Below, piece after piece: positions 33,130 through 49,954 of a DNA stretch of 64,000 bases. Position numbers and translations under genes: made by a program. The notes beneath the pieces were generated by a model. That model saw nothing but the letters and a program-made list of their open reading frames with translations, was not told the DNA's origin and ran no database searches. This DNA is from Occultella kanbiaonis (lineage in GTDB: Bacteria > Actinomycetota > Actinomycetes > Actinomycetales > Beutenbergiaceae), in assembly GCF_009708215.1 (NCBI RefSeq), contig NZ_CP046175.1, forward strand, positions 992,001 through 1,056,000, written 5' to 3'. Positions within the stretch are counted from its first letter, which is position 1. The number at the start of each line of letters is the position of its first letter.

Positions 33130-33786
33130 TCAGGCGCGCGCCAGCGCGACGCTCGTCATACTCTCGGGTTCGGCCCGCACCCGCACGCGGATCCGGTCGG
33201 ACATCGCCTCGGCGCGCGTCGCGGCCGCGTCGAGCGTCGTGATCGCGGCGCGCAGCGGCAGCCCGGCCCCGTTGCTGTCCCCGGCCCGGGCGGCGCACGC
33301 CAGGTCCACCTCGATCATCAGGACCGACGCCCGCAGCGCTGCCGCGAGGCTCGAGGCGGCGACCCCGAGGTCGGAGATCACGACCGGGTTGCCGTGGGTG
33401 GCCAGGGCCGCGAGGTCGGGCATCAGGTCGAGCCCGGCCCGGCCAAGTTCGACGGCCGTCAGCGCCGCCGCGATCGAGGCGGCCACGATCGCAGCGTCCC
33501 GGTCACGCCGCTGCGCCGGGCTGGTCTCGGGCAGGCGGAAGGCGGCGGCGAAGCGGGCGGAGGCGGCGCCGTCGGCCTCGACCAGGTCCGCCGCCCGCGC
33601 CCGGATCACCTCGGTGCGCCGACGCAGGGCGGCGATCGGGGTGGGCCCGTTCGGCCAGTCGGTGCTGTACCCGGCCACCATCGAGGCGAGCGCGGCCGCC
33701 ACGCCGAGCAGCGCGCCGGCGGCGGCGCCACCACCGGGGTCGGGCTGCGGTGCGGCCAGGCGGTCGAGCCAGGTGGGGGTGCTCAC
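33130..33786 (-). CDS. Cyclodeaminase/cyclohydrolase-family protein (FTCD-C type)
   Basis: The 218 aa all-helical protein matches the formimidoyl-tetrahydrofolate cyclodeaminase fold: LAAPQPDPGGGAAAGALLGVAAALASMVAGY (about 10-40, given here as a region) is the typical N-terminal signature, followed by long helices with a central DAAIVAAS. Family members release ammonia from formimino-folate or act in one-carbon transfer. GTG 33786 overlaps the upstream stop (GTGA). It is the last gene of the amidase-isochorismatase-cyclodeaminase operon, which points to processing of a one-carbon, nitrogen-bearing fragment. Confidence 0.86.
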   Translation of the reverse strand: MSTPTWLDRLAAPQPDPGGGAAAGALLGVAAALASMVAGYSTDWPNGPTPIAALRRRTEVIRARAADLVEADGAASARFAAAFRLPETSPAQRRDRDAAIVAASIAAALTAVELGRAGLDLMPDLAALATHGNPVVISDLGVAASSLAAALRASVLMIEVDLACAARAGDSNGAGLPLRAAITTLDAAATRAEAMSDRIRVRVRAEPESMTSVALARA

Positions 33787-34586
33787 GGTCGCGGCTCCAG
33801 GTCGGTGGGTGATTCGCGGCCCGGTGAGCCGAGCGCGGTGAGCAGGTCGGCTCCGGTCGCCGTGAAGCCGAAGCACTGCCGGACGTTGTACACGGTGGCA
33901 TCCATGCAGAACTCGGGGCTGGTGGTGGCGACCGCGTCCTGGAGCATCACCACGTCGTAGCCGAGGTTCGCGGCGTCGATCAGCGTCGCGAACACGCACT
34001 GGTCCGCGTTCACGCCGGTCAGCAGCAGGGTGTCGACCCGGAGGTTGCGCAGGATCGAGTCCAGCGGGGTGTCGGTGAACCCGCTCATCCGGTACTTGTC
34101 CACACGCAGGTCGCCCGGCTCCGCGGTGAGCCCGTCCACGACGGCCGCCGCCCACGAGTCCTTCTGGAGCACCGCGGACCCGGTCGGGGAGTCGGTGGAG
34201 CCGATCCCGCCGCCGGTGCCGTCGGCGTCGTACACGTGCAGCACCCCGGGCGGCAGGTTCGCCCGATCCGGCCGGTTGCCCCAGTTCACCCACACGACCG
34301 GCACACCCGCCATGCGCAGCGCCGGCAGCAGTCCGGACAGGACCCCGGTCGGCGCGGCCGCACCGCTGACGTCCACGCCGATCCCGCCGAGCCAGCCGTC
34401 CGGGTGGCAGAAGTCGTTCTGCATGTCGATCACGAGCACGGCGGTGCGGGCCAGATCGAGGGTGAGTCGCTGCGGTTGCGCGGGAATCGTCACCGGGGCC
34501 TCGGGCCGGGACGGTCGCCGCAGGTCGACGGCGGACGCAGACAGTCCCCAGCTGTTGCGTGGCCGGTCGGTCGCCGTGAGCGTCAT
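33783..34586 (-). CDS. Isochorismatase-family cysteine amidohydrolase
   Basis: The 267 aa protein carries the catalytic triad of nitrogen-specific isochorismatase-like hydrolases: Asp in VLVIDMQNDF (about 50-59), Lys in VDKYRMSGF (about 157-165) and Cys in GVNADQCV (about 188-195). Biuret hydrolase, N-carbamoylsarcosine amidohydrolase and RutB share this layout and cleave ureido or amide bonds. A 35-residue N-terminal extension precedes the core. It is overlapped on both sides (ATGA with the amidase, GTGA with the cyclodeaminase). It probably hydrolyses a carbamoyl or amide intermediate of the island's pathway. Confidence 0.9.
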   Translation of the reverse strand: MTLTATDRPRNSWGLSASAVDLRRPSRPEAPVTIPAQPQRLTLDLARTAVLVIDMQNDFCHPDGWLGGIGVDVSGAAAPTGVLSGLLPALRMAGVPVVWVNWGNRPDRANLPPGVLHVYDADGTGGGIGSTDSPTGSAVLQKDSWAAAVVDGLTAEPGDLRVDKYRMSGFTDTPLDSILRNLRVDTLLLTGVNADQCVFATLIDAANLGYDVVMLQDAVATTSPEFCMDATVYNVRQCFGFTATGADLLTALGSPGRESPTDLEPRP

Positions 34587-36241
34587 CGGGCCTCCTGGGT
34601 GAGCAGCGCGAGCAGGGAGCGGTCCGCGCCGGGCCCACCGACGAGGCCGAGCCCGACTGGCAGGGTGCCGACCCGTGCCGCCGGGATGCTGACCTGCGGC
34701 AGCCCGGCGAGCGAGGCGAGGCAGGTCAGCCGCAGGGTCGCCGCCCGGGTGGACTCGACCACGGCCGCCTTCGCGCCGACCGGCGGGGCCGTCGAGGAGG
34801 TGGACGGCAGGGCGAGCAGGACGCCGTCGGGCAGTGCCCCGACGAGGGCATCGCGGGCCGCCGCCAACACCTCGGTCGCGCTCTCGCGCAGTTCGTCGTC
34901 GACCTCGGCGCCGGCGCGGAACCGGGCGGCCACGGCCGCGTCGAGGCGGTCACCGTGGCCCTGCACGAAGGACCGGTGGGTCGCCCAGGCCTGAGCCTGC
35001 TGGACGGTGCGGAACGCGGCGAACCAGGAGGCGAGCAGTTCGGGGTCGAGGTCCGCCGCCTCCACCCGGGCGCCGGCGCGCAACGCGAGCGCTCGCAGTG
35101 CGGCCTCCGTGGCCAGGCGGGCGTCGGGCTCTGCCAGCCCCATGAGTTCGTCGACGACGACGATGGTCTCGGTCGGGACCACCGCGGCCGGCGGCAGCAG
35201 CGCGCCCGCCGCGCGGCTCAGCGTCGCGGCGTCCCGGGTGAGCACGCCGACGGTGTCGAACGACGGCGCCAACCCGACGAGCCCGTCCCGGCTGACGGCG
35301 TCGTGGGTGGTGCGCAGACCGTACAGTCCGCAGTACGAAGCCGGCACCCGGATCGAGCCGGCGGTGTCGGTGCCAAGCCCGATGTCCGCGACGCCCGCAG
35401 CGACGGCAGCGGCCGGCCCGCTCGTGGACCCGCCGGTGATCCGCCCGGGTGCGGCCGGGTTCGGTGGGGCGCCGTAGTGGACGTTCTCCCCGGCCAGGGC
35501 GAACGCGAGCTCGTCGGTGTGGGCGATCCCGGCGACGTCCGCGCCGGCCTCGAGCAGGGCACGCACGGCGTCGGCGTCGGTGGCCTCGATCGGTGCGGCG
35601 TCGACCCACGTCGGGTTGCCCGCCCCGATCCGTTCGCCGGCGACCGCGAACAGGTCCTTCACGGCCACCCGGGCGCCCGTGAGAGGGCCGCCGGGGGACC
35701 CCGCCCGCAATGGGGCCGGCCCGGGCGGCACCCGCCAGATCGTCGGGTCGACGTCCGCGCCGGGCACCGGTGCGAAGGCGGGCGCGGGCACCGTCGAGAC
35801 GTGCGCCGTGCTCACCCGCCAGGAGCCGCCGTCGCCACGTTCCCAGACCTGGGTCTGCACGCCGGTGCCGCCGTCGGCGCGGACGCTCTCGGCGACGAGC
35901 ACGGCGACGCCGTCGGCGAGCGCGCGCAGGTGCACCCGGGTGAGCTGACGGTGCGGCACCCCGCCGCGGCCGGCCCGGAACGCCGCGATGTGGTCGTGGC
36001 CGACAAGGACGGCGCCGGCATCCGCGCGAAGGGTGCGCCCACCGGGTGCGAACAGCCCGTCCAGCTCGGGCACGTCGTTGCCGATCAGGGCACGCTCGTA
36101 GCGCCAGAACGCCTCGAGCAGGGCCGGGTCGCCGAGCGGAGCCGGATCGGGCCCCGGACCGGTCGCACCGGGCGGTCCGGCACCCGGTTCGGGCACGGCC
36201 GGCGCGGGGACGGAATGCAGCGAGCGGGTGTGGGGGGTCAC
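34583..36241 (-). CDS. AtzH-like domain fused to amidase-signature hydrolase
   Basis: The 552 aa protein joins two units that are separate in cyanuric acid pathways. Residues about 40-150 are an AtzH/DUF3225 SnoaL-like domain (LLEAFWRYERALIGNDVPEL, HRQLTRVHLRALADG). Residues about 170-550 are an amidase-signature enzyme with the Ser-Ser-Lys triad: Lys in VAVKDLF, Ser in GGSTSGPAA and Ser in TDTAGSIRVPA. It should hydrolyse a small amide such as a biuret or carboxybiuret-like compound; the substrate is inferred. GTG 36241 lies 21 bp from a regulon palindrome. The open frame extends 23 codons further but crosses that palindrome. Confidence 0.9.
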   Translation of the reverse strand: MTPHTRSLHSVPAPAVPEPGAGPPGATGPGPDPAPLGDPALLEAFWRYERALIGNDVPELDGLFAPGGRTLRADAGAVLVGHDHIAAFRAGRGGVPHRQLTRVHLRALADGVAVLVAESVRADGGTGVQTQVWERGDGGSWRVSTAHVSTVPAPAFAPVPGADVDPTIWRVPPGPAPLRAGSPGGPLTGARVAVKDLFAVAGERIGAGNPTWVDAAPIEATDADAVRALLEAGADVAGIAHTDELAFALAGENVHYGAPPNPAAPGRITGGSTSGPAAAVAAGVADIGLGTDTAGSIRVPASYCGLYGLRTTHDAVSRDGLVGLAPSFDTVGVLTRDAATLSRAAGALLPPAAVVPTETIVVVDELMGLAEPDARLATEAALRALALRAGARVEAADLDPELLASWFAAFRTVQQAQAWATHRSFVQGHGDRLDAAVAARFRAGAEVDDELRESATEVLAAARDALVGALPDGVLLALPSTSSTAPPVGAKAAVVESTRAATLRLTCLASLAGLPQVSIPAARVGTLPVGLGLVGGPGADRSLLALLTQEAR

Positions 36242-36261
36242 GGTCCGACCGTACCGACGAG

Positions 36262-36279
36262 TGTTGATGGGACGAACAT
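36262..36279. promoter_or_regulatory. Regulon palindrome, copy 1 (amidase promoter)
   Basis: TGTTGATGGGACGAACAT matches 14 of 18 positions of the best copy at 47384. The left arm TGTTGATG is intact and the right arm keeps AACAT. It lies directly upstream of the AtzH-amidase gene. Confidence 0.6.
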
Positions 36280-36358
36280 CCGTCACAAAGGTCTTACCTG
36301 CGCGAAACACAGGGCGGCGCGGCGCCTCCCCGGCACCGTGGGCGGTGGGCCTGGCGGC

Positions 36359-36970
36359 TCAGGGCAGCACGGGAAAGCTGCGCCACCCGGCGCCGTCGGA
36401 GCGGAACCGGGTCTTCGCGGCCGGGGTCGTCTCGGTGCCGACCTGCCAGAAGTCCACGCCGCAGGGCCGCAGCTCGATCGTGGTCCAGCTCGCGGGGGCG
36501 GGCAGGGTCTGCGGGTCCCGCGCGGCCGCTGCCGCGAAGGCCTTCTCGACGGCGCCCGCCGGGACCTCGTAGTCGGGTCCCCTCAGCGCGGGGGTCAGGT
36601 CCTCGTACGCCCACGCGACCAGCTGCAGCGTCCGGGGCCGGGTCGGGTAGGCGGCCGTGGTGACCGCGCGGTCGAGCTCGGTCGCCGCACCGGTCAGGAT
36701 GGCCTGCCGGCCGAGCGCCGGCCAGTGGAACACCGCGCTCACCCGAGGGTTGTCGGCCAGGTCCCGGGTCTTGGCCGTGGGGGAGGAGGAGTGGAACCGG
36801 AGCGAGTGATCGTCGATCGTCGTCACCAGCACCGTGCGGGCATGCGGGTTCCCGTCGGCGTCGGCGGTGGCCAGGGTCATCGTGGACGGCATCGGGACAC
36901 CGGCCGCCTCGGCCTCGGCGACCCATCGGGCCAGGACGTCCAGCGGGTTGCCGGTGAGGGTCTCGATCAT
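36359..36970 (-). CDS. Pyridoxamine 5'-phosphate oxidase-like flavin protein
   Basis: The 203 aa protein has the split-barrel flavin fold of PNPOx: PSTMTLATADADGNPHARTVLV (region about 28-49), FHSSSPTAKTRDLADNPRVSAVFHW (region about 59-83) and, near the C-terminus, the PNPOx-type end (FWQVGTETTPAAKTRF). It retains the GNPHAR and TAKTRDL patterns that bind FMN. In this island it may be a flavin-dependent oxidase or reductase acting on the pathway's substrate instead of making PLP. The start overlaps the regulator's stop, so it is expressed with the XRE-cupin regulator. Confidence 0.85.
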   Translation of the reverse strand: MIETLTGNPLDVLARWVAEAEAAGVPMPSTMTLATADADGNPHARTVLVTTIDDHSLRFHSSSPTAKTRDLADNPRVSAVFHWPALGRQAILTGAATELDRAVTTAAYPTRPRTLQLVAWAYEDLTPALRGPDYEVPAGAVEKAFAAAAARDPQTLPAPASWTTIELRPCGVDFWQVGTETTPAAKTRFRSDGAGWRSFPVLP

Positions 36971-37614
36971 GCGGTGGGTTCCTCCTGGAGATCGGTGGTG
37001 GACGCGTCGCCGGGTTCGGCGGCGTGGATGACGAGGACGACGCTGGGGGTCTGGCCGACCTGACGGAACCGGTGCTCGGTGCGGCCCGGGTAGCCGACCG
37101 AGTCCCGCGGGCCGAGCGTCTCCAGGCGAGGGCCGCCGTCGCCGACGATCTCGACCTCGATGGCCCCGGCGACCACGTACAGGAACTCATGGGAGTCGTG
37201 CTGGAAGAAGTCCGCGAACTCCGTCGGTGAGTTCACGAACTCCGTGACGTCGATGTGGCGGTCGTGCACGAGCAGCCGGGCGCCACCGGTCAGCACGTCC
37301 ACGAGGTCGGCGTCGCTGCCGCGCACCACGGCGTCCGCCGAGGACGCCGCCGCGGCGGACAACAACGCCTGCTGGGTGGTGCCGAGGGCCTGCGCGATCT
37401 GGAACAGCGACCGCATCGAGGGGCGGGCCCGGCCACGCTCCAACTGGGACAGGAACGGGTGCGACAGCCCGCTCGCGGCAGCCACCTGGACCAGCGTCAG
37501 CGAGCGCTCCTTGCGGAGCCCGCGGATCGCCTGGCCGAGCCGCACATCCGCCTCCCGTTCGGCGCCGGCCGGGCGTCTCGGACGGCGTTTCGCCTGCTCT
37601 GCGGTCATGTTCAC
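36967..37614 (-). CDS. XRE-cupin transcriptional regulator
   Basis: The 215 aa protein has an N-terminal XRE helix-turn-helix (about 28-85: IRGLRKERSLTLVQVAAASGLSHPFLSQLERGRARPS, as a region) and a C-terminal cupin domain (about 130-205, QHDSHEFLYVVAGAIEVE, GYPGRTEHRFRQ) that should bind the pathway's effector. It lies between the main operons and is divergent from the metallo-hydrolase operon, with one regulon palindrome between them. It is the obvious candidate to bind all three palindromes. Repressor or activator cannot be told from sequence. Confidence 0.92.
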   Translation of the reverse strand: MNMTAEQAKRRPRRPAGAEREADVRLGQAIRGLRKERSLTLVQVAAASGLSHPFLSQLERGRARPSMRSLFQIAQALGTTQQALLSAAAASSADAVVRGSDADLVDVLTGGARLLVHDRHIDVTEFVNSPTEFADFFQHDSHEFLYVVAGAIEVEIVGDGGPRLETLGPRDSVGYPGRTEHRFRQVGQTPSVVLVIHAAEPGDASTTDLQEEPTA

Positions 37615-37687: not shown

Positions 37688-37712
37688 TCCTCGACGAGCC
37701 AGGGAGGTGGCC

Positions 37713-38648
37713 ATGACCGCCGTACACGAAGCCGAGATCACCGCGGGCCGGGTCGGCGCCGAGCCGTCCGCGGCCGACTGGTTCCACACCCGTGACCTGG
37801 GCGCCGGCGTGGTGCTGATCGCCGAACCGGGGCACGTGAACTCGTTCCTCGTGATCGGGGCCGAGCGGGCCCTGCTGTTCGACACCGGCATGGGCATCGC
37901 GTCGATCGGCGAAGCGGTCGCCGCCCTCACCGACCTCCCGGTGCTCGCCGTCAACTCCCACGACCACCTCGACCACCGGGGTGGCAACGCCGACCTCGTC
38001 GAGAACGCGGCACTGGTCGACCTCGAGGACCTGTGCGCCCACCCGGCCGGCCGCCACGACGCCGTCGACCCGGCGTACCTGGCCGCGTACGCGACCGCCA
38101 TGGGCGCCGTCCACGCCGACCACGAGACCTACCGACGCCTCGACGCGAGCGCCTTCTTCGCCGTCGGGGATCTGCCCAGGATGCACGCGCTCCCGGACCT
38201 CGGCGGGTGGCAGGTCGGTGCCGTGCCGCCCACCCGGCGCCTGGCCGACGGCGAACGGATCGACCTCGGCGGCCGCACGCTGCGGGTGCTGCACACCCCC
38301 GGGCACAGCCCCGACGGGCTCGCCCTCTGGGACGAGGCCACCGGCACCCTGCTCGCCGGGGACACGGTCCTCGCGGCCGCGCACTGGCTGCACGGCGAGG
38401 GCGCGGACGTCGCCGCCTTCGACGGCACCCTGCAACGCCTCGCGGCGCTGCGGCCGGCCCGGGTCCTGGTCGCCCACAACCTGCGCCACGAACTGCCCGG
38501 TGACGCGGTCGAGCGGGTCGCCGCCGCCGTGCGGGCGGTGCGCTCGGGCAGCTCCGTCGGGCGGCCCGGCCACGACCTGCTCGGCGGGCCCGCCTGCCGT
38601 CACGACGTCGATGGCGTCGTCCTGCTCACGCCCTCGGAGGCTTCATGA
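37713..38648 (+). CDS. Metallo-beta-lactamase-fold hydrolase of the catabolic island
   Basis: The 311 aa protein has the HxHxDH zinc motif as H83-H85-D87-H88 (NSHDHLDH), the third-site His in HTPGHSPDG, the bridging Asp in LAGDTVLAA and a late His in VAHN. It is distinct from the LACTB2-like protein at 21174. ATG 37713 follows AGGGAGG; the GTG at 37707 overlaps that site and is less likely. It is the first gene of the seven-gene plus-strand operon, overlaps the next gene (ATGA), and probably hydrolyses a ring-opened or ester/amide intermediate. Confidence 0.9.
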   Translation: MTAVHEAEITAGRVGAEPSAADWFHTRDLGAGVVLIAEPGHVNSFLVIGAERALLFDTGMGIASIGEAVAALTDLPVLAVNSHDHLDHRGGNADLVENAALVDLEDLCAHPAGRHDAVDPAYLAAYATAMGAVHADHETYRRLDASAFFAVGDLPRMHALPDLGGWQVGAVPPTRRLADGERIDLGGRTLRVLHTPGHSPDGLALWDEATGTLLAGDTVLAAAHWLHGEGADVAAFDGTLQRLAALRPARVLVAHNLRHELPGDAVERVAAAVRAVRSGSSVGRPGHDLLGGPACRHDVDGVVLLTPSEAS

Positions 38649-39958
38649 CCACGGACACCTCAACCAGCCCGGCGCGGCTCGCGCCGACCGTCGCGGTCGG
38701 CGCCCCGGGCGGCCCCGCGCACCTGGCCGGCACCGCCGTGGCCGCGATCCTCGGGGTGCGTCTGCCGGACGGCGCGCTCGCCGACCTCACCCTCACCGAT
38801 GGCTGGATCACCGACGTCCGGCCCGTGGGCGCCGCCGGTCCGGCGCCGAGGCCCGACGGCGCAGCCGTCCTCGACGCGTCCGGCTGGCGGTTCGTGCCTG
38901 CCGCGAGTGAGCCCCACGCCCACCTCGACAAGGCGCTCACCGCGCCGCGGATGGACCCGGGCGCGGGAAACGACCTGGTCTCGGCCGTCGCCTCGTGGCG
39001 CGAGCTCCTGCCCACGGTCACGTCGGCGGACGTGCACGAGCGGGCGCTCGCGGCCGTGCACCGGTACGCGGCGAACGGCATCACCACGATCCGTTCCCAC
39101 GTGGACATGCCCGCCGAGGGGGACCCGATGCGCGGCGTCGACGCCCTGCTGGCCCTGCGCGAGGAGCTCTCGGGCCGGATCGCCCTGCAGGTGTGCATCC
39201 TGGCCGGCTCCGAGACCCCGGACTGGGCGGTTGCGGAGGCCGTCGCACGCGGGGTCGACGTGATCGGCGGCTGCCCGCACCTCTCGCCCGACCCGCACTT
39301 CGAGACCTCCCGCATGCTCGACGTCGCCGAACGGCACGGGCTCCCGGTCGACCTGCACACGGACGAGCAGACCGACGCACCGGAACTCGACATCGTCGAC
39401 CTCGCCGAGCAGGTCCAGGCCCGCGGCCTCACGCAGCGGGTCACCGCCAGTCACTGCGTCCGTCTCGGATCCCTGCCGCCGGAGCGGCTCGCCCCGGTCC
39501 TCGAGGTCGTCGCCCGCGCCGGCCTCGGCGTGGTGACCCTGCCGATCACGAACCTCTACCTGCAGGGCTGGGACGCCACCCACCTCGCCCCCCGTGGGCT
39601 CACCGCCATGCGGGCACTCCTGGACGCGGGCATCCCGCTCGCCGCGGGCGCCGACAACCTGCGCGACCCGTTCAACCCGGCCGGGCGGGCGGACCCGTTC
39701 GAGACCACCGCCCTGCTCATGACCGCCGGCCACCTACGCGCCGAGGAGGCGCTCGCCGCCGTGACCACCGGCGCGCGAACGGTACTCGGACTGCCCCAGG
39801 TGGGCGCCGCCGTCGGGCATGCCGCGGACCTGATGCTCGTCCCCGACGGCGACCTCGGCGACCTGCTCGCCGGCACCCCCGACGCCCGGGTGGTGCTGCA
39901 CGGCGGACGAGTCGTCGCCGACACCCGGATGAACCGCTCCCTCGACCTGTTCCACTGA
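38645..39958 (+). CDS. Cytosine-deaminase-type amidohydrolase
   Basis: The 437 aa enzyme belongs to the metal-dependent amidohydrolases of the cytosine deaminase branch. It has HAHLDK (91-96) with both metal His and the branch-specific LDK, SHVDMP (about 152-157), DLHTDE (about 237-242) with His and the proton-shuttle Glu, ASHC (about 270) and GADNLRDPF (about 336-344) with the metal Asp. The GADNLRDPF block is typical of cytosine and isocytosine deaminases, so deamination of a pyrimidine- or imidazole-like ring is the likely reaction. ATGA overlap links it to the metallo-hydrolase; the importer genes follow. Confidence 0.92.
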   Translation: MTTDTSTSPARLAPTVAVGAPGGPAHLAGTAVAAILGVRLPDGALADLTLTDGWITDVRPVGAAGPAPRPDGAAVLDASGWRFVPAASEPHAHLDKALTAPRMDPGAGNDLVSAVASWRELLPTVTSADVHERALAAVHRYAANGITTIRSHVDMPAEGDPMRGVDALLALREELSGRIALQVCILAGSETPDWAVAEAVARGVDVIGGCPHLSPDPHFETSRMLDVAERHGLPVDLHTDEQTDAPELDIVDLAEQVQARGLTQRVTASHCVRLGSLPPERLAPVLEVVARAGLGVVTLPITNLYLQGWDATHLAPRGLTAMRALLDAGIPLAAGADNLRDPFNPAGRADPFETTALLMTAGHLRAEEALAAVTTGARTVLGLPQVGAAVGHAADLMLVPDGDLGDLLAGTPDARVVLHGGRVVADTRMNRSLDLFH

Positions 39959-39993: not shown

Positions 39994-40764
39994 ATGGCCG
40001 CACCTGCTTCCACGATCGCACCACCCGCCTCGATGACCCGGACCCTCGTGATGGAGGGGGTCTCGAAGAGGTTCGACACCGGCACCGTCGCGCTGACCGA
40101 CGTCGACCTGCACCTGGCCGCCGGGGACTTCGTCTCCGTCGTCGGGCCCTCCGGCTGTGGCAAGTCCACGCTGCTGCGGCTGGCTTCGGGCCTCGACCAC
40201 GTGACCGGCGGCACCATCGAGGTGAACGCCCATTCCACCAGCTACGTGTTCCAGGAACCCGCCCTCCTGGAATGGCGGTCCGCGATCCGTAACGTCGAAC
40301 TGACCGGCGAGCTGCGCGGGGTGCCGACCTCCGACCGTCGCGCCCGAGCCCAGGAGGCGCTCGACCTGGTCGGCCTGACCGGCTTCGAGCAGCAGTTCCC
40401 GCGACAACTGTCCGGCGGCATGCGGATGCGCGTGTCGATCGCCCGCGCCCTCGTCACCGAACCCGACCTCGCGCTCTTCGACGAACCGTTCGGTGCGCTC
40501 GACGAGATCACCCGGCTGCGGATGCAGACCGAGCTGCAGCGGATCTTCCAGCTCAAGCAGTTCGCCGGGCTGTTCATCACCCACTCGGTCTCCGAGGCCG
40601 TGTACCTGTCCAACCGGGTGATCGTGATGAGCGGCCGGCCCGGCCGCGTGGTCGCGGACATTCCGATCCCCTGGGACTACCCCCGACCGCCCGAACTGCG
40701 TTACGAACCCGAGTTCGGCGCCATCACCGGCGAGGTCTCGGCCGCACTGGGAGAGCACTCATGA
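39994..40764 (+). CDS. ABC importer ATPase (nitrate/taurine/SsuB type)
   Basis: The 256 aa ATPase has Walker A GPSGCGKS (51-58), the Q-loop in YVFQEPALLEWRSAIRNVEL that defines the SsuB/TauB group, signature LSGGM (an LSGGQ variant usual in this group), Walker B LALFDEPFGALD and switch His in FITHSVSEA. AAAGG precedes the ATG. It overlaps the permease gene (ATGA). With the next two genes it makes a complete uptake system for the island's substrate. Confidence 0.94.
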   Translation: MAAPASTIAPPASMTRTLVMEGVSKRFDTGTVALTDVDLHLAAGDFVSVVGPSGCGKSTLLRLASGLDHVTGGTIEVNAHSTSYVFQEPALLEWRSAIRNVELTGELRGVPTSDRRARAQEALDLVGLTGFEQQFPRQLSGGMRMRVSIARALVTEPDLALFDEPFGALDEITRLRMQTELQRIFQLKQFAGLFITHSVSEAVYLSNRVIVMSGRPGRVVADIPIPWDYPRPPELRYEPEFGAITGEVSAALGEHS

Positions 40765-41732
40765 AGACCACCACGACCAAGGCGGGGCCGGAGCGGGACG
40801 CCCTGGACGCCGTCGGAGCGGAGATCACAGAGAGGGCCGTCGCCCCCATGACCCCCACCGAGACCGACGTCGAGTCGGCAGCCGCGGCGGACGTCGCGGA
40901 CGAGACCGCCGAACAGGCCCACGGCGGCGGTGCCCCGACCACCCCGTGGTGGCGCTCGGCGATCCGGCAGTCCGCCCCGATCCTGCTCGCCCTCGCCGGG
41001 ATCGCCGCGATCTGGTACCTCGTCTCCCTCGCCCTGCTGCCGCAGGACCAGCGGTTCCTGCTCCCGCCGCCGCACGAGGTGTTCAGCCGGGCCCTGACGA
41101 ACAGCGCCCTGATGACCCCGATGCTCGAGGCCCTCGGCCGGACGATGGTGGTCGCGATGATCGGCCTCGTCATCGCCGTGGCCCTTGGCATCGGCTGGGC
41201 CGTGGTGATGTCCTCGTCCGGCTGGGCGGAGCGGATCCTGTACCCGTACGCCGTGATCATGCAGACGATCCCGATCCTCGCGCTCGTGCCGCTGATCGGG
41301 ATCTGGTTCGGGTACGGGTTCCCGGCGCGGGTGATCGTGTGCGTGATCATCGCCCTGTTCCCGATGATCTCCAACACCCTGTTCGGCCTGCAGTCGGCGT
41401 CGCCGTCCGCCCATGACCTGTTCACCCTGAACAAGGCGACCGCACTGCAACGGCTCACCAAGCTGAAGTTCCCAGCCGCGCTGCCGTCGATCTTCACCGG
41501 CCTGCGCAACGCCGCCGGCCTGAGCGTCATCGGCGCCATGGTGGGGGACTACTTCTTCCAGCAGGGCCCGGTCGGCATCGGCGGGCTGCTGCGCACCTAC
41601 ACGCTACGCCTGCAGATGGACGCCCTGTTCACCGCGATCGCCCTCACCGCCGTGTTCGGCGTGCTCGTGTTCACCATCTTCGCCGTGCTGGACCGGCTCG
41701 TCATCGGCCGCTGGTACGGCCTCAAGCGCTGA
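40761..41732 (+). CDS. ABC importer permease (SsuC/TauC type)
   Basis: The 323 aa protein has an 60-residue acidic, cytoplasmic N-terminal extension and then six or seven membrane helices. The binding-protein-dependent transport loop (FPMISNTLFGLQSASPSAHDLF ... FPAALPSIFTGLRNA, about 200-245) contacts the ATPase. Its overlap with the ATPase gene and the following binding-protein gene define a three-part importer. Confidence 0.93.
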   Translation: MKTTTTKAGPERDALDAVGAEITERAVAPMTPTETDVESAAAADVADETAEQAHGGGAPTTPWWRSAIRQSAPILLALAGIAAIWYLVSLALLPQDQRFLLPPPHEVFSRALTNSALMTPMLEALGRTMVVAMIGLVIAVALGIGWAVVMSSSGWAERILYPYAVIMQTIPILALVPLIGIWFGYGFPARVIVCVIIALFPMISNTLFGLQSASPSAHDLFTLNKATALQRLTKLKFPAALPSIFTGLRNAAGLSVIGAMVGDYFFQQGPVGIGGLLRTYTLRLQMDALFTAIALTAVFGVLVFTIFAVLDRLVIGRWYGLKR

Positions 41733-42956: not shown

Positions 42957-44315
42957 ATGACCATCAGCGCCACCCCCAGCGTTGCCGAGAGGTCGCACCG
43001 CCTCGCCGAGCTCCTCACCTTCGAGCTCGGCGAGGGGGCGGTCTCCACGGAGCCCGAACTGATCCGGAAGGTCTCCTCGGACTGGTCCCGGATGTCCCCG
43101 ATCCTGCAGGAGAAGGTCCCCGCAGGCCGGTACCTCGCAGACCTCGTGGTCCGGCCGAACGCCCCGGAGGAGGTGCCCGTCGTCCTGGCCCTCGCCCTCG
43201 AGGCCCGGGTGCCGGTCACCCCCCGCGGCGCCGGCACCGGCAACTACGGCCAGCTCACGCCGTTCGAGGGCGGCGTCACGCTGGACCTGCGCGGCCTCGA
43301 CACGATCACCGTCGAAGAGCAGACCATCACCGCCGGTCCCGGTGCGAAACTCACCGCGATGGACGCGGCCGGCCGGGCCGCCGGGCGGGACATCTGGATG
43401 TTCCCGTCCACCAAGGGGTCCACGATCGGCGGGTTCATCGGTGGCGGCAGCGCCGGCACCGGGACGACTCTGCGCGGCACCACCACGGACGGGTTCGTGG
43501 AGTCGCTGACCATCGCCCCGATGGACGGCAGTGCCCGTGCCTTCACGGTGCATGGCGAGGACACCCAGCCCTACATCCACACCTACGGGGTCACCGGCGT
43601 CATCACGTCGGCGACGGTGCGCACCGACCCGGCCCGGGACTGGGTGGCCATCTACGCCGCCTTCGACGGCTACGCCGACCTGGTCGACGTGCACCGGAGC
43701 CTGCTCGACCTTCCGGTGCTGCCCCGGCTCGCCTCCGCGGACGAGCCTGCCCTGGTGCCGACGCTGCCGGCGTCGGTGCCGCTGGACCCGGAGCGGTACA
43801 GCCTCCGGGTGATCGCCGAGGCGTCGACGGTCGCCGAGATCGAGCGCCGGATCCGGGCCGCGGGTGGGTCGGTGGTCGCGGTGCTGGAGGACTACGCGGA
43901 GACGGACAAGCTCTCCTCGATGTCCTACAACCACCCGATCTACTTCTGGCAGCAGGCCGAGGGGAACCCGCCCTGCTTCCACCTGGAGACCGGTGGCACC
44001 GTGCTCTGGGACGACCCGGACGCCATCCGCGCCGTGTACCCGAACACCCGTCTGCACCTGGAGCTGATGGGCACCGGGCCGCTCGCGATGGTGGTCGGTG
44101 ACTACGTGGACGAGGCCCAGGTCCTGGCCGGCATCCCGGCCCTTGAGGCGGCCGGGCTCGGCGTGCACTCGCCGCACCAGTGGTACGTCGACCGGAACGT
44201 TGCCCTGGCGGTCGAGACCGCCCGACGCACCGACCCACGCGGCCTGCTGAACCCCGGCAAGCTCGATCCGGGGCTGGCCCGCCCGGACACCCGCTCCACG
44301 ATCGGGACCCACTGA
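42957..44315 (+). CDS. FAD-linked oxidase (GlcD/VAO type)
   Basis: The 452 aa flavoenzyme has an FAD_binding_4 (PCMH) domain in residues about 45-230: VVRPNAPEEVPVVLALA, PRGAGTGNYGQ (about 84-94) and STIGGFIGGGSAGTGTTLRG, as in glycolate oxidase and related VAO-family enzymes. The C-terminal 200 residues form a cap domain not typical of GlcD. It could oxidise a hydroxy acid or an amine produced by the pathway. It follows the binding-protein gene by 4 bp and shares a base with the creatininase stop-start. Confidence 0.88.
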   Translation: MTISATPSVAERSHRLAELLTFELGEGAVSTEPELIRKVSSDWSRMSPILQEKVPAGRYLADLVVRPNAPEEVPVVLALALEARVPVTPRGAGTGNYGQLTPFEGGVTLDLRGLDTITVEEQTITAGPGAKLTAMDAAGRAAGRDIWMFPSTKGSTIGGFIGGGSAGTGTTLRGTTTDGFVESLTIAPMDGSARAFTVHGEDTQPYIHTYGVTGVITSATVRTDPARDWVAIYAAFDGYADLVDVHRSLLDLPVLPRLASADEPALVPTLPASVPLDPERYSLRVIAEASTVAEIERRIRAAGGSVVAVLEDYAETDKLSSMSYNHPIYFWQQAEGNPPCFHLETGGTVLWDDPDAIRAVYPNTRLHLELMGTGPLAMVVGDYVDEAQVLAGIPALEAAGLGVHSPHQWYVDRNVALAVETARRTDPRGLLNPGKLDPGLARPDTRSTIGTH

Positions 44316-45097
44316 TGGGCGCGCCGAAGTTCATCGACCTGACCTTCCGGCAGGTCGAGGCGCTACCCGCCGACACCGTCGCGGTGCTGCCGCTCGGTGC
44401 GATCGAGCAGCACGGTCCGCACCTGCCCGTATCCACCGACTACGTGACCGCGACCGAGGCGGCCGAGGCGGCGGTCGCCTCGGTCGCCGAGGCCGGCGCC
44501 GCGAGCGTGGTGCTGCTGCCCGGGCTCGCCTTCACGAAGTCCGACGAGCACCACTGGGCACCCGGCACGATCTGGCTGACCTGGGAGACGCTCATGGCCA
44601 CCCTGGTGGACATCGGCCGGTCCCTGCAGACGTCCGGGATCACGCGGCTCATGTTCGTCAACGGCCACGGCGGCAACTCCGCGCTCGGCCAGGTCGCGTG
44701 CCGGGAGATCCGGCGCAGGTTCGGGCTGCGCACGTTCTTCTCGCACCTGTCCGTGCCGCCGGACCAGGCCCGGGACGTCGCGAACCCGCACGAGCTCGGT
44801 CTCGGTGTCCACGGCGGGCACAGCGAGACCTCGCTGATGCTGCACCTGCGCCCCGAGCTCGTGCACATGGAGCTCGCCGAGCGGCGCGTACCCGAGCACC
44901 TCGCCGACTACGAGCTGATCGGGTTCGGCAAGCCGGTCAGCTTCGGCTGGCTGTCGGACGACTTCGGCCCGGACGGCCACATCGGCGACCCGACCACCGC
45001 GGACGCGGACACCGGCAAGATCCTCTTCACCGCCGCCGTCGAGCGGATCGCCCGGGCGATCGTGGAGGCATCGGTCTTCGACCCCACCCCGCGCTGA
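44315..45097 (+). CDS. Creatininase-family hydrolase
   Basis: The 260 aa enzyme has the creatininase metal motifs: EQHGPHLPVSTD (about 30-41; Glu, His, Asp ligands), NGHGGN (about 117-122) and HGGHSETS (about 169-176; ligand Glu). Members hydrolyse cyclic amides such as creatinine or formamides (FAPy, MftE, riboflavin pathway), so ring opening of a lactam-like intermediate is likely. ATG 44315 overlaps the oxidase stop by one base, and a strong terminator follows at 45137, which closes the operon. Confidence 0.92.
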   Translation: MGAPKFIDLTFRQVEALPADTVAVLPLGAIEQHGPHLPVSTDYVTATEAAEAAVASVAEAGAASVVLLPGLAFTKSDEHHWAPGTIWLTWETLMATLVDIGRSLQTSGITRLMFVNGHGGNSALGQVACREIRRRFGLRTFFSHLSVPPDQARDVANPHELGLGVHGGHSETSLMLHLRPELVHMELAERRVPEHLADYELIGFGKPVSFGWLSDDFGPDGHIGDPTTADADTGKILFTAAVERIARAIVEASVFDPTPR

Positions 45098-45272: not shown

Positions 45273-46370
45273 TCAGGCGAGGTCGGTCAGGTCCGCCTTG
45301 CGGATCTTGCCGTGCACGCCGCGGACCCGATCGACCACCTGGGAGACGGCGAAGTCACCGGCGGCGGACAGGTAGGCGTACGCGTGCGCCGGGTGCATGC
45401 CCAGGTCGGTGAGGAGAGCGACGGCGGAGCGTACGGCCGCGCGCATCGCCACGTTCAGGTCCGGGTCGAGCCCGATCGGGACGAGCAGGTCGGGCGTCTC
45501 CGCCCAGAGCTCGCCCGGGCGGGGCAGGTGCGCGGCCGGGATGAGGTCGAACCGCACACTCGCGCGCAGGGGCGCCTCGAACGCGGTGAGGGCGACCTCG
45601 CCGTCGCCCTGGGCGTAGTGCGGGTCGCCGACGTAGGCCAGCGCCCCGTCGACCTGGACCGGCACGTGCAGCGTGGACCCGACCGTCAGCAGCGAGACGT
45701 CGACGTTGCCGCCGTGCGCGCCGGGCGGCACCGAGTGGGCCCGCTCGGATCCCGCCACGGCCACGCCCATGGTGCCGAGGAAGGGCGCGAGCGGAAACCG
45801 GACCCGCCGATCGTCGCTCGGGCCGACGGCCATGGTGCCCACCAGCGACGGCGACGACGACGCGCCCGGGTGGGCGCCGCCGTCGGGCATCGGCTCGACC
45901 CGGGCCAGGATCGAGGTGACCGGCGCGCCCTCGAGCGGGAACTGCTCGGGCAGCGCCCCGCGCCCGTGCCGGCTCGAGACGATGCCGTAGTCGGCGCGCA
46001 TCCGCAGGTCCAGGACGGTCATCGAGAGCACGTCGCCCGGGCGGGCGCCGCGGACCCGGATCGGCCCGGTGACCACGTGCGGGCCGTGCGCGGCAGGGTC
46101 GTGGGATACCTCGGCGGCGACCGCGACGGCGTCCCGGAGCACCTCGGTGATGCCGTGGCCGGCGAAGAACGCGGCGGGGTCGCGGCCCTGGTCCTCGAGG
46201 ATGCCCTCGTGGGAGACGGTGTCGATCAGCACGGTCTCGCCGGGGTCGATCGTGAGCACCGGGTCGTCGCCGGCGCAAGGCAGCTCACCCCACAACACGG
46301 TCCCAGGGGTGGCCGGGAGGTACCGGCCACCCCCGGGACGTGAGTCGAGGGGTTGGAGGAGGGTGCTCAC
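45273..46370 (-). CDS. Acetamidase/formamidase-family protein
   Basis: The 365 aa enzyme of the FmdA/AmdA family hydrolyses formamide or acetamide to ammonia and the acid. The motifs SERAHSVPPGAHGGNVDV (about 213-230), GDPHYAQGDGE (about 254-264) and SAAGDFAVSQVVD (about 338-350) are family hallmarks and hold the metal and catalytic residues. The start overlaps the cupin stop (ATGA), and it is the last gene of the flavin reductase-cupin-formamidase operon. It probably removes a one-carbon amide released by the pathway. Confidence 0.92.
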   Translation of the reverse strand: MSTLLQPLDSRPGGGRYLPATPGTVLWGELPCAGDDPVLTIDPGETVLIDTVSHEGILEDQGRDPAAFFAGHGITEVLRDAVAVAAEVSHDPAAHGPHVVTGPIRVRGARPGDVLSMTVLDLRMRADYGIVSSRHGRGALPEQFPLEGAPVTSILARVEPMPDGGAHPGASSSPSLVGTMAVGPSDDRRVRFPLAPFLGTMGVAVAGSERAHSVPPGAHGGNVDVSLLTVGSTLHVPVQVDGALAYVGDPHYAQGDGEVALTAFEAPLRASVRFDLIPAAHLPRPGELWAETPDLLVPIGLDPDLNVAMRAAVRSAVALLTDLGMHPAHAYAYLSAAGDFAVSQVVDRVRGVHGKIRKADLTDLA

Positions 46371-46810
46371 ACCACCTGCGGGAGGCCGGCGCAGAGCACC
46401 GAGCGGTCGGCTGCGGTGAGCGCGACCTCGGTGCCGTCCGTGACGAGCTTCGCGAAGCCACCGTCGTTGGACATGATCGTGATCGTGTAGAGGTCCTCGG
46501 TCTCGGAGGTGTTGATGATCCGGTGCTCGGAGCCCTCCTGGAGGATCAGCACGTCACCGGCGGTGAGGGTCACCACGGCCTCGTCGCTGTGGGCCTGCGC
46601 CTCGCCCTTGAGGACGATGAAGATCTCGGCGGACTCCTCGTGGGAGTTCAGCGGTTGGGCGCCGCCCGGCTCCCAGACCTCCAGGAACACGCTGGTGTTC
46701 GTGCCGTCCTTCGGTCCGGCCAGGCAGGCGAGCTTCACCGTGTCCTCCGGGCCGATCAGGAAGGCCGGGGTGTCCGCGAGCTTGCGGATGACGGGTGCTG
46801 CTCCACTCAT
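46367..46810 (-). CDS. Small cupin-domain protein
   Basis: The 147 aa single-domain cupin has the two motifs: LNSHEESAEIFIVLKGEAQAHSD (region about 62-84; with His and Glu metal ligands) and a second with GDVLILQEGSEHRIIN (about 93-108; His ligand). It could be an isomerase, dioxygenase or binding protein for the pathway. It is overlapped with the formamidase and lies 34 bp after the flavin reductase gene, with a GAGAGG ribosome site. Confidence 0.9.
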   Translation of the reverse strand: MSGAAPVIRKLADTPAFLIGPEDTVKLACLAGPKDGTNTSVFLEVWEPGGAQPLNSHEESAEIFIVLKGEAQAHSDEAVVTLTAGDVLILQEGSEHRIINTSETEDLYTITIMSNDGGFAKLVTDGTEVALTAADRSVLCAGLPQVV

Positions 46811-46844: not shown

Positions 46845-47357
46845 TCAGGAACGCGGGAGTGTGTGGAAGCGCCGGTCCACGTAGGCGAGGGCCGAACCGC
46901 CGACGACGGCGGGGGCGTGCACCGCGTCGACGGCGCCGAGGATGATGACGTGGTCCCCGGCGTCGGCGGTCTGCGTGATGGTGCACTCGACCGAGCGCAG
47001 GCTGTGCTCGGCGAGCCAGGGCAGGCCGCCCGGGGTGAAGCGGTGCGGGGTGCGCGCGAACTTGTCCGTGGCGCGGGACGCGAACAGGGTCGCGACGTCC
47101 TGCGCGCCGCCGTGCAGCACGTTCGCGACGAACGCGCCGCGCTCGAGCACGGCCGGCAGGGTGCGCGACCGGACGTCCACGCACAGCCCGAACATCGGCG
47201 GTGTCACGCTGACACTGAACCCGGTGGAGACCGTCAGCCCGCTCGGGCTGCCGTCCGCGCCGGTGGTGGTGATGACGCAGACCCCGGCGGCCAGGCCCGC
47301 CATGGCGGCGCGGAACTCATCGGTGACGGCGGTGCCGGGCGGTGCGGTGGTGGTCAT
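46845..47357 (-). CDS. Flavin reductase-like protein of a two-component system
   Basis: The 170 aa protein has the split-barrel flavin reductase domain: RAAMAGLAAGVCVITTTG (about 16-33), PSGLTVSTGFSVSVTPP (about 38-54) and FVANVLHGGAQDVATLFAS (about 77-95), as in HpaC and RutF. Such proteins feed reduced FMN to a separate oxygenase. No clear class-D oxygenase is in the island; the LLM protein at 57213 is too far away to be the obvious partner. It heads the operon controlled by the best palindrome. Confidence 0.92.
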   Translation of the reverse strand: MTTTAPPGTAVTDEFRAAMAGLAAGVCVITTTGADGSPSGLTVSTGFSVSVTPPMFGLCVDVRSRTLPAVLERGAFVANVLHGGAQDVATLFASRATDKFARTPHRFTPGGLPWLAEHSLRSVECTITQTADAGDHVIILGAVDAVHAPAVVGGSALAYVDRRFHTLPRS

Positions 47358-47383
47358 GGAGAGGCTCCCCGGGACTCAGAAGG

Positions 47384-47402: not shown

Positions 47403-47472
47403 TCACGGTAGGGGCGCGATGTTTCGGTCACGTGACGCGCCGTTAATATCCCGGTGACGTCTCGCCGGGAGC

Positions 47473-48927
47473 ATGCGAGTCATGACCCCCGCGCTCCTGC
47501 TCACCGACGCCCTGCTCCTGCCGATGGCCGACCCGCGCCCGGGTGAGCCCGACTGGTTCCGGGGCTGGCTCGCGGTGGGGCACGACGGGCGGATCTGCGG
47601 CATCGGCCCGGGCGAGGCCCCGACGGCGCTGCTCGCCCCGGGCGTCCAGGTGCGCGCGCTCGGTGGGGCGATCGTGGCGCCGGGCTTCATCTCCGCGCAC
47701 TCGCACCTGTTCACCTCCGGCCTGCGGGGGATCGCGCCGGAGTCGACGCTCTACCCGTGGGTCGGCGCGATGATGGACGTGTTCGCCCACACCGACGCCG
47801 AGGACATGTACTGGTCCACGCTGCACGGCGCCCTGGACTTCATCGCGAACGGGATCACCAGCGCCTACAACTTCACCCAGTCCCGGGTCACCTGGCGCTA
47901 CGACCCCGCCACGGCACGCAACGTGCTCGCCGCCGTGCACCCGCCGGAGAACCTCACCCGCCAGTTCGACGGCGCCGCCGACGCCGGGCTGCGCACCATC
48001 GCCTCGATCCGCCTGGACGACGAGGCCGGTCCGCGGGCCGAGGTGCTCGCCACGTTCGCGGACATGGTCGCCGCCGCCCGCACGCACACCCCGCCGGAGC
48101 TGTTCCTCGGTGCGTCCGTGATGGGCGCCGTCCAGTGGGCGGCCGGCCCGAGCACCGCCGAGGTCGAGGCGCGCGCGATGCGCACCCACGGGATCACGAA
48201 CCAGGCTCACTTCGTGGAGACCGCGCAGGGCCTGGACGTGCAGCGGGCGAAGTTCGACTGGTACGTCCGCGCCGGTGCGCTCGGGCCGGACCTGCTGTTC
48301 GGGCACTTCATCCACCCGACCGACCAGATGGTCGACGCCGTGGCCGCGGCCGGCGGGCGGATGGTGTGGCAGCCGACCTCGAACGGGCGCCTGGCCTCCG
48401 GCGTCGCGGACGTGGTGCGGTACGCCCGGGCCGGGATCGGCATCGGGATGGGGCTGGACGACCAGGCCTGCACCGACATCTCCGACCCGTTCGGGAACAT
48501 GCGCCTCGGCCTGTACTCCCAGCGTGCGCTGCACCACGACGCCGCGGTGATGTCGGCCCGGCAGGTGCTGCGCCTGCACACGTTGGGATCCGCGGAGGTG
48601 CTCGGGGTCGCCGACCGGGTCGGCAGCCTCGAGGTGGGCAAGTTCGCTGACTTCCTCGTGGTCGATCACACCGCGCCGGACACCGGGCCGGTCTGGGACG
48701 TCTACGCCACGTACGTGATGGCCTGCGGGCTGCGCAACCTCAAGGACGTCTACATCGGCGGGCGGCTGGCCGCGCGGGAGGGCACCTGCACCGCCCCGCG
48801 CGCGGCCGACGCGCCCGGGCAGCTGCGCGAGCGGATCGGCCGGGCCGCGGCGGCCGCGGGGACGCCGCTGCCGGACCTGGCCGCGGCGCGGGCCACCCCG
48901 TCCGAGGAGCCCGCGGCACTCGTGTGA
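47473..48927 (+). CDS. TRZ/ATZ-type amidohydrolase
   Basis: The 484 aa enzyme belongs to the chlorohydrolase/guanine deaminase branch of amidohydrolases. It shows HSHLF (metal His76 and His78), NQAHFVET (about 239-246; His and catalytic Glu), FGHFIHP (about 276-282; His) and GLDDQACTD (about 331-339; metal Asp), then the C-terminal beta-domain (ADFLVVD). Relatives deaminate or dechlorinate triazines, 8-oxoguanine and thioadenosines. It differs from the cytosine-deaminase type enzyme at 38645, so the island has two ring-deaminating or hydrolytic steps. ATG 47482 is an alternative start. Confidence 0.92.
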   Translation: MRVMTPALLLTDALLLPMADPRPGEPDWFRGWLAVGHDGRICGIGPGEAPTALLAPGVQVRALGGAIVAPGFISAHSHLFTSGLRGIAPESTLYPWVGAMMDVFAHTDAEDMYWSTLHGALDFIANGITSAYNFTQSRVTWRYDPATARNVLAAVHPPENLTRQFDGAADAGLRTIASIRLDDEAGPRAEVLATFADMVAAARTHTPPELFLGASVMGAVQWAAGPSTAEVEARAMRTHGITNQAHFVETAQGLDVQRAKFDWYVRAGALGPDLLFGHFIHPTDQMVDAVAAAGGRMVWQPTSNGRLASGVADVVRYARAGIGIGMGLDDQACTDISDPFGNMRLGLYSQRALHHDAAVMSARQVLRLHTLGSAEVLGVADRVGSLEVGKFADFLVVDHTAPDTGPVWDVYATYVMACGLRNLKDVYIGGRLAAREGTCTAPRAADAPGQLRERIGRAAAAAGTPLPDLAAARATPSEEPAALV

Positions 48928-49054
48928 GCAAATCGGGCTCCCACGATGTGGACGCCCGGCCGCCAGCATCCGGGACCGTCGGGCGCCGTCGACCACCGTC
49001 CGAGGCACCCGCCGAGGATGGGCGTCGTACCCGTCATCCACAGGAGGCAGCCCC

Positions 49055-49954
49055 GTGAGCATCACCGACAACCCCGTCCGTCCCAGCGGCTCGACCGACA
49101 CGACCGAGGCGGTTGTGCAGTGGCGGGACTGGCACGCCGCCCGCGAGGAGCAGCTGCGCGGCAAGCACGACTGGCTGTCCCTGGTGGACTACCTCTGGGT
49201 GCCGCGCGCGGAGCGTGCGCTGGCGAACCTGCCCGGCGCCTGGTGGGCCGACGAGGACGGCCTGCACCTGCGGGCAACCGCCGTCGACGGCGTCCGTGTG
49301 CTCGGTCCTGACGGCGAACCCGGCGCGGTGCTCGACGGCGTCGCCGGCGTGGTGGTCGGCGAGGCCAAGTCGGCGAGGTTCGCGCTCACCGCAGACGACG
49401 TGCTCGTCGAGGTCATCCTCCGCGGGGGCCTGTACGCGCTGCGCGTCCGGGACCCGCGCTCTGCGACCCTGGCCGGCTTCGAGGGCGTGCCGACCTATGA
49501 CTACGACCCGTCCTGGGTGCTCGAGGTGAGCACCACGACCTACCCGCAGGCACGGCCGACCACCGTCCTCGCCGCCGCCCCCGGCCTGACCCAGGTGGCC
49601 TCCGCCGTCGGAGAGGTCACCTTCACCCGGGACGGCGCCGAGCACCGGCTGATCGCGGTCGGAAAGGGCGATTCGTGGGCCGTGCTGTTCAGCGACGAGA
49701 CCTCCGGGGTGACCAGTTCCGGCTGGCGCGTCGCCGGCGTCACCGGCGACCCGGGTACGGGCACCGCGACCCTTGACCTGAACCGCGCCGTGAACCTGCC
49801 GTACGCGTTCACCGACTACGGCACCTGCCCGCGCCCGATCGAGGGCAACCACCTCGCCCTTGCCGTCACGGCGGGGGAGAAGGCGCCGACCGGCCGGACC
49901 GGGGTGCCCGGCGAGGACGTGCCGAGCAGGGTCCCCGCCGAGCAGCCCGCCTGA
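49055..49954 (+). CDS. DUF1684-family protein
   Basis: The 299 aa protein matches DUF1684 by its end: a strand DLNRAVNLPYAFTDYGTCPRP (as a region about 247-267) and LALAVTAGEKAP, a pattern close to the family signature of Asn-Pro-rich, Cys-containing segments that resemble thioesterase or NADPH-binding scaffolds. The N-terminal WRDWHAAREEQLRGKHDWLSLVDYLWV block is also typical. The function is unknown. The start is GTG 49055. It lies 127 bp after the TRZ/ATZ amidohydrolase in the same direction. Confidence 0.85.
   Translation: MSITDNPVRPSGSTDTTEAVVQWRDWHAAREEQLRGKHDWLSLVDYLWVPRAERALANLPGAWWADEDGLHLRATAVDGVRVLGPDGEPGAVLDGVAGVVVGEAKSARFALTADDVLVEVILRGGLYALRVRDPRSATLAGFEGVPTYDYDPSWVLEVSTTTYPQARPTTVLAAAPGLTQVASAVGEVTFTRDGAEHRLIAVGKGDSWAVLFSDETSGVTSSGWRVAGVTGDPGTGTATLDLNRAVNLPYAFTDYGTCPRPIEGNHLALAVTAGEKAPTGRTGVPGEDVPSRVPAEQPA

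Follow-up and report, generated by a model that had tools for sequence, protein, structure and literature searches.

The 17 genes at positions 33130-49954 of a 64,000-nucleotide stretch of the Occultella kanbiaonis genome (contig NZ_CP046175.1, positions 992,001 to 1,056,000; hereafter the window) probably constitute a folate/pterin catabolic cluster in an elaborate actinobacterial form. The conserved core of this island consists of an amidohydrolase resembling cytosine deaminase (AH1), a creatininase-family hydrolase, a flavin adenine dinucleotide (FAD) oxidoreductase and an ATP-binding cassette (ABC) importer. The folate/pterin reading is supported by homology and gene context, from which we infer the substrate, the order of steps, the regulation and every reaction. 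The genes, with their Pfam (PF) and NCBIfam results, are as follows.

33130..33786, minus strand: formiminotransferase-cyclodeaminase C-terminal (FTCD_C) family protein, 218 amino acids (PF04961, E = 7.8e-29, scored on a longer frame; the trimmed frame is stop-free)
33783..34586, minus strand: isochorismatase-family hydrolase (nearest NCBIfam models RutB and biuret hydrolase, both below cut-off)
34583..36310, minus strand: AtzH-like domain fused to an amidase-signature amidase (PF11533, PF01425; NCBIfam PRK08310 amidase just below cut-off)
36359..36970, minus strand: PNPOx/PhzG-like split-barrel protein, predicted from its family to bind flavin mononucleotide (FMN) (PF01243; PRK05679, pdxH and PhzG models below cut-off)
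36967..37614, minus strand: regulator with XRE helix-turn-helix and cupin domains, transcribed away from the importer operon (PF01381, PF07883)
37707..38648, plus strand: metallo-beta-lactamase (MBL)-fold metallohydrolase (PF00753, E = 9.5e-18)
38645..39958, plus strand: AH1, cytosine-deaminase-like amidohydrolase, candidate pterin deaminase (PF07969; PRK07583 at 191 bits, below cut-off)
39994..40764, plus strand: ABC importer ATPase, SsuB/TauB type
40761..41732, plus strand: ABC importer permease (PF00528)
41774..42952, plus strand: ABC substrate-binding protein (SBP) (no Pfam match; assigned from gene order and a predicted fold nearest ThiY/Thi5)
42957..44315, plus strand: FAD_binding_4 oxidoreductase, homologue of PDB entry 6v42
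44315..45097, plus strand: creatininase-family hydrolase, overlapping the stop of the FAD gene (PF02633, E = 2.6e-67; nearest NCBIfam model MftE)
45273..46370, minus strand: FmdA/AmdA formamidase-acetamidase family protein (PF03069, E = 1.1e-28)
46367..46810, minus strand: small cupin (PF07883)
46845..47357, minus strand: flavin reductase, candidate supplier of reduced flavin (PF01613)
47473..48927, plus strand: AH2, TRZ/ATZ-type amidohydrolase (PF01979)
49055..49954, plus strand: DUF1684 protein, accessory (PF07920)

A profile of the FAD enzyme, built from 14 orthologues, matched 6v42 in the PDB at 237.5 bits, with profile positions 15-437 (of 450) aligned, the next PDB sequence scoring 80.9. 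The AlphaFold model of the enzyme (mean predicted local distance difference test score, pLDDT, 82) likewise returned 6v42 at Foldseek rank 1, and the motif TGNYGQ in the FAD domain, conserved without exception across the 14 aligned proteins, is found in both 6v42 and the Klebsiella relative. These comparisons place the window enzyme in the 6v42 family, clearly nearer to it than to other FAD_binding_4 enzymes, and set it apart from plain D-lactate dehydrogenase relatives. The depositors of 6v42 gave it the title 'Crystal structure of the flavin oxygenase with cofactor bound involved in folate catabolism'. The homology of the FAD enzyme to 6v42 thus points to a pteridine, rather than to a triazine, creatinine or a plain pyrimidine.

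The close relatives of 6v42 were found in a familiar gene context. Rhizobium plasmid proteins reach 67% identity to 6v42, and 113 of the 184 matching records lie at 60-80%. Around a 67%-identical relative in R. leguminosarum WSM1325 the order is creatininase-LysR-SBP-ATPase-permease-'cytosine deaminase'-FAD enzyme-NAD(P)H oxidoreductase-RidA, and it is common to two further Rhizobium loci, one of them without RidA. Since this Rhizobium relative lies in the same core, close 6v42 relatives share the cluster type of the island, a context that comes from the relatives and not from the organism of 6v42 itself. The structures 6v42/6v43 with their Rhizobium relatives resemble the island in a near full-length match to the FAD profile, in TGNYGQ and in the core cluster. 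Unlike the island, the Rhizobium loci carry LysR and the NAD(P)H oxidoreductase, with RidA in two of the three, and in those read there was no match to the island's AtzH-amidase, isochorismatase, FmdA, MBL, PNPOx or XRE-cupin genes. A molybdenum aldehyde oxidoreductase (PaoABC), possibly a pterin-aldehyde oxidase, is annotated beside the Rhizobium cluster (L168:1-2622).

Scanning genome contigs for the SBP gave 50 loci, all actinobacterial bar one doubtful alphaproteobacterial match (L089). AH1, the creatininase-family gene and the FAD enzyme were each present at 41 of these loci, and all three at 37. A sample less biased than this SBP-chosen one was obtained by running the FAD profile against 394 genomes of the class, of which 25, the own genome included, were positive at E 1e-60; 20 regions were taken from the 24 non-own positive places. 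The AH1-creatininase-FAD trio was found in 17 of these, and the three misses (L141, L145 and L147) lie at contig ends. The two sets overlap, because five locus pairs are the same genomic places (L040, L041, L042, L073 and L076 correspond to L028, L029, L032, L131 and L132). Proteobacterial plasmid regions held the trio in 10 of 14 cases, a rate biased by the choice of regions through core-gene matches: to the creatininase (L092, L093, L095, L097, L100, L101), AH1 (L090, L091, L096), the FAD enzyme (L094, L102, L103, L104) or 6v42 (L168). When L090, L091 and L097, in which no such FAD gene is annotated, are omitted, the trio is present at 10 and RidA at 9 of the remaining 11 plasmid loci. The core was also seen on other Rhizobium, Klebsiella, Comamonadaceae and roseobacter plasmids. 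Since it recurs in two phyla, a chance association of AH1, creatininase and FAD genes is excluded.

Around this core the clusters vary. Counting any match within a stretch, not just those adjoining the core, DUF1684 was present at one of the 50 SBP loci (that of Occultella), FmdA at 5, the isochorismatase at 6, the AtzH-amidase at 7 and FTCD_C at 9, with AH2 at 66-98% identity in 11. Given the rarity of these accessory genes, part of the gene list would represent lineage-specific finishing chemistry or passengers. The redox partner also differs by lineage, being a flavin reductase with the PNPOx-like protein in the window island, a small NAD(P)H oxidoreductase (presumably of the FMN-reductase type) in Rhizobium and a PDR/VanB oxidoreductase with a 2-oxoglutarate-Fe (2OG-Fe) oxygenase in the Klebsiella cluster; Rieske genes lie near one Nitratireductor cluster and a Fer2 reductase is present in a Microbacterium cluster. 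Klebsiella pneumoniae plasmid p2B17602 (L092:2399-14915) combines the core with RidA, the PDR/VanB oxidoreductase, a second amidohydrolase and the 2OG-Fe oxygenase, and other Klebsiella records hold AH1 and creatininase matches of the same identity.

In AH1, residues H91, H93, H238, E241, H270 and D337 are invariant in 16 of 16 proteins and align to the catalytic set of CodA (HxH, H, E, H, D). All 16 have K directly after HxHLD, where CodA has T, and all 16 have N at the position aligned with CodA D314, which we take to be the residue contacting or limiting the pyrimidine 5-position. These two substitutions argue for a ring other than cytosine. AH1 scored 191.3 bits against the PRK07583 'cytosine deaminase' model and did not pass its cut-off of 403; among the cluster relatives, the Rhizobium AH1 passed with 701.9 and the Klebsiella protein failed with 229.9. 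Comparison of AH1, and of the F6 amidohydrolase in related loci, with the PDB singled out no one substrate. We consider AH1 a candidate pterin deaminase, and the name 'cytosine deaminase' is probably wrong for the AH1 group, making PRK07583 a probable family misannotation. The amidohydrolase beside the 6v42-type FAD gene (L168:7620-8933) scores far above the PRK07583 cut-off. Elsewhere in the own genome (L190, C1:2563001-2583000) an AH1 paralogue (42% identity) occurs with another amidohydrolase, molybdenum hydroxylase subunits, XdhC, a luciferase-like monooxygenase, an enolase-superfamily protein and an SBP; in each of the four Occultella genomes searched, ∼4 kb separate the paralogue from an amidohydrolase.

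The SBP model (pLDDT 89) has a fold closest to the formylaminopyrimidine-binding protein 3ix1 and the thiamin-binding protein 4nmy, and this predicted fold fits a small N-heteroaromatic ligand without being specific for one. The creatininase-family protein keeps E29, H31, D40, H116 and E169 in 17 of 17 sequences, presumably the residues that serve metal binding and catalysis in this family. It did not pass the creatininase model TIGR04448 (96.5 bits, cut-off 235), and its best NCBIfam match was the mycofactocin peptidase MftE, at 130.5 bits against a cut-off of 172. Some of the related clusters also encode MTHFR-like or FTCD_C proteins, which are members of folate enzyme families. MTHFR-like matches occurred at 15 of the 50 SBP loci and in 14 of the 20 FAD-selected regions; the Pfam scan of MTHFR-like proteins covered one from a cluster (L065) and the own-genome one. 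The latter was excluded as a part of the island, as it lies ∼2 Mb off and is 34% identical to the Microbacterium cluster protein.

Combining these observations, a pathway can be proposed in which the ABC importer would take in a pterin or a folate-derived pteridine and AH1 would strip its 2-amino group, converting the pterin to a lumazine type. The FAD enzyme would then oxidise the pteridine ring, with the flavin reductase and the PNPOx-like protein feeding or supporting it, and the creatininase-family enzyme would hydrolyse a ring amide. AH2, the AtzH-amidase, the RutB/BiuH-like isochorismatase, the MBL hydrolase and FmdA may clear what nitrogen is left in amino, ureido, amide and formamide groups, and FTCD_C (joined by MTHFR-like proteins in some relatives) may process one-carbon units carried by or taken from folate. 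The XRE-cupin protein would regulate the island from the divergent promoter region. A possible but distinctly tentative extension is that the clusters constitute a complete aerobic route, with one-carbon stripping of folate (by FTCD_C here and an MTHFR-like protein in relatives), pterin deamination, flavin oxygenation by an enzyme of the vanillyl-alcohol oxidase (VAO) fold and hydrolytic dismantling of the pyrimidine half, in which case PRK07583 might consist largely of pterin deaminases.

The island is a discrete unit, present or absent between sister genomes. In the sister genome G009, 126 bp stand in place of window positions 33000-50031. On the left, window 26003-32999 is matched in four pieces, the last ending 126 bp short of a 68-bp block that corresponds to window 50032-50098, and the next match resumes at window 54449, ∼1 kb on; the flank pieces, the 68-bp block and the resumed match are on one contig. 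The limits of 33130-49954 proposed in the earlier note were therefore correct, the G009 alignment breaking at 32999 and 50032. Two other Occultella genomes keep the island, with proteins 85-99.6% identical, and one of these (G010/L029) lacks AH2 and DUF1684. Most of the island is also present in three genomes of another genus of the same family. A further family member (G005) has the regulator, PNPOx, AH1, the importer and the creatininase together with a more distant FAD enzyme (43%). The stretch adjoining the island (50049-54448), which encodes an AAA-domain protein (possibly a LuxR-type regulator) and an FAD oxidoreductase, is a second variable stretch; its genes are gone from G009 and mostly gone from the other two Occultella genomes.

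Within the 5.65 Mb single-contig host genome, the 17 genes are arranged as four blocks: a leftward regulator-PNPOx-AtzH/amidase-isochorismatase-FTCD_C block, a rightward MBL-AH1-ABC ATPase-permease-SBP-FAD-creatininase block, a leftward flavin reductase-cupin-FmdA block and a rightward AH2-DUF1684 block. Neighbouring genes overlap by 1-4 bases at seven junctions, and 92 bp separate the divergent XRE-cupin regulator and importer operon. Codon-position GC chose the same reading frames, except for that of FTCD_C, which was located via Pfam. Every protein family named in the earlier note was recovered by Pfam, including the AtzH-amidase fusion, FmdA and DUF1684. Its ABC importer was confirmed by Pfam for the ATPase and permease, and for the binding protein through gene order and predicted fold. 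The XRE-cupin regulator (36967-37614) and the MBL-fold hydrolase (37707-38648) were absent from it by name. A promoter and terminator scan gave no signal exceeding that of shuffled sequences.

Several observations weigh against folate/pterin catabolism as the function of the island. The window FAD protein is only ∼25% identical to 6v42 in the structure alignment, so its exact substrate may differ from that of 6v42, and the folate link itself comes from the depositors' PDB title, as literature searches on 6v42 and on folate/pterin catabolism gave no paper on the flavin oxygenase. Two models of cytosine deaminase give AH1 nearly equal scores (191 and 189 bits), and the pterin deaminases Arad3529 and Variovorax F1 are likened to AH1 as cyclic-amidine deaminases and, for Variovorax, by gene context, not by sequence alignment. 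Taurine, alkanesulfonates and PQQ are further ligands within the SBP fold family, and the importer family occurs without the enzyme trio: 13 of the 50 SBP loci lack it, of which 8 are short or cut near the SBP and five (L060, L071, L075, L082 and L083) are 17-21 kb long. FTCD_C was found at 9 of the 50 SBP loci and in none of the 20 FAD-selected regions, which makes the one-carbon part of the proposal weak, and no tetrahydrofolate riboswitch is indicated, since the Rfam scan of 28000-55600 gave no match at gathering score. The island contains no RidA gene, and the six RidA-family genes of the genome lie outside it. Among the island genes scanned, no carboxypeptidase G, p-aminobenzoate or p-aminobenzoylglutamate gene was recognised, so the pathway may handle free pterins and not whole folate.

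The same evidence bears on other substrates. Another fused or modified nucleobase, such as a methylated or oxidised purine of the isoguanine type, would have AH1 and AH2 as deaminases and the FAD enzyme as ring oxidase. The superfamilies of AH1 and AH2 do include enzymes acting on guanine, 8-oxoguanine, isocytosine and dimethylguanine (PMC13054789, PMC6186785), a 35% relative of AH1 in Aminobacter shares a stretch with the urate hydroxylase PuuD, and one Nitratireductor locus has an annotated ureidoglycolate lyase beside the core. However, the structure title of the FAD enzyme's closest solved relative names folate catabolism, and neither xanthine dehydrogenase, uricase nor allantoinase was matched among the island genes scanned, leaving a nucleobase a rather unlikely substrate. 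Catabolism of the thiamin pyrimidine (HMP) or another aminopyrimidine would suit the closeness of the SBP fold to 3ix1 and 4nmy and the resemblance of AH1 to cytosine deaminase. We judge it improbable, as the same fold list includes the taurine-, alkanesulfonate- and PQQ-binding proteins, the FAD enzyme indicates a different substrate and the scan of island genes found no thiaminase or TenA match.

Triazine/cyanurate- or barbiturate-type degradation was the leading comparison in the earlier note. The AtzH domain, the amidase, the biuret-hydrolase-like isochorismatase and the AtzC- and TrzN-related amidohydrolases are indeed shared with, or related to parts of, the atrazine/cyanurate pathway of AtzB, AtzC, AtzE, AtzF, AtzH and biuret hydrolase, whereas the island core is an FAD oxidase, a creatininase-family enzyme and a dedicated ABC importer. 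With no cyanuric acid hydrolase (AtzD) or barbiturase match among the island genes scanned, and with the AtzH-amidase and isochorismatase falling outside the core by their locus counts, this substrate class is very improbable. Degradation of creatinine or N-methylhydantoin would account for the creatininase-family gene, and we presume that the deaminase could then serve as creatinine deiminase, with the role of N-carbamoylsarcosine amidase falling to the isochorismatase. That scheme has scarcely any likelihood, as it leaves the FAD enzyme without a role, the creatininase model score is far below cut-off, and no creatinase, sarcosine oxidase or ATP-dependent hydantoinase was matched among the genes scanned. 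The Rut uracil pathway shares a RutB-like isochorismatase and a flavin reductase (the RutF analogue) with the island. It was rejected: the isochorismatase scored 129.7 bits against the RutB cut-off of 377.95, and the island genes scanned contained no RutA-type luciferase-like monooxygenase (Bac_luciferase) match. Overall, the earlier proposal of a catabolic island with a dedicated importer for a nitrogen-rich heterocycle holds, and its logic of deamination, ring opening and amide cleavage is likely. Its family links to triazines, creatinine and pyrimidines give way to the pteridine indicated by 6v42, and not all of the genes it listed are core.

Two characterised systems offer points of comparison for a folate/pterin pathway. 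The name 'endoribonuclease' is, we assume, an older one borne by RidA-family proteins. The Variovorax F1 pterin deaminase, shown biochemically, falls among the cyclic-amidine hydrolases as one branch member, and its V. paradoxus orthologues have endoribonuclease genes downstream (PMC9513972). These neighbours resemble the RidA genes near AH1 in the proteobacterial clusters; the island differs in having none. In the lumichrome pathway, PMC12746152 describes LumH opening the fused pyrimidine ring, LumI cleaving the urea moiety and LumM hydrolysing the imidamide. The Nocardioides simplex lum system thus dismantles a fused pyrimidine ring stepwise with C-N hydrolases, as proposed for the island, and may serve by analogy as a tested precedent for its hydrolytic end steps. 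Riboflavin or lumichrome as the substrate was rejected, as the key lum enzymes were unmatched in the island: the P450, thiamin-dependent decarboxylase, xanthine oxidase, and Rieske and catechol dioxygenases given for lum (PMC12746152) had no match among the island genes scanned.

Bacterial folate breakdown has been studied for decades with its genes mostly unassigned. One account lists well-characterised vitamin catabolism as that of B6, NAD and B2 alone (PMC12746152), and another leaves open the further breakdown of pteroate and deaminopteroate (PMC9513972). Our literature searches on folate/pterin catabolism did not find the biochemistry of a cluster of this kind in print. The earlier note knew of no pathway with this exact gene set; among the records listed in gene-family literature searches there was no described cluster, and the 8 of 3,423 records listed in a further search held nothing relevant. 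The core itself recurs in other genomes. As a conserved but dispensable cluster, the island would supply genes that can be tested for the steps still missing from folate breakdown and would correct a probable 'cytosine deaminase' misannotation. It may also bear on vitamin turnover in soil, in the rhizosphere and, given the Klebsiella plasmid version, perhaps in the gut.

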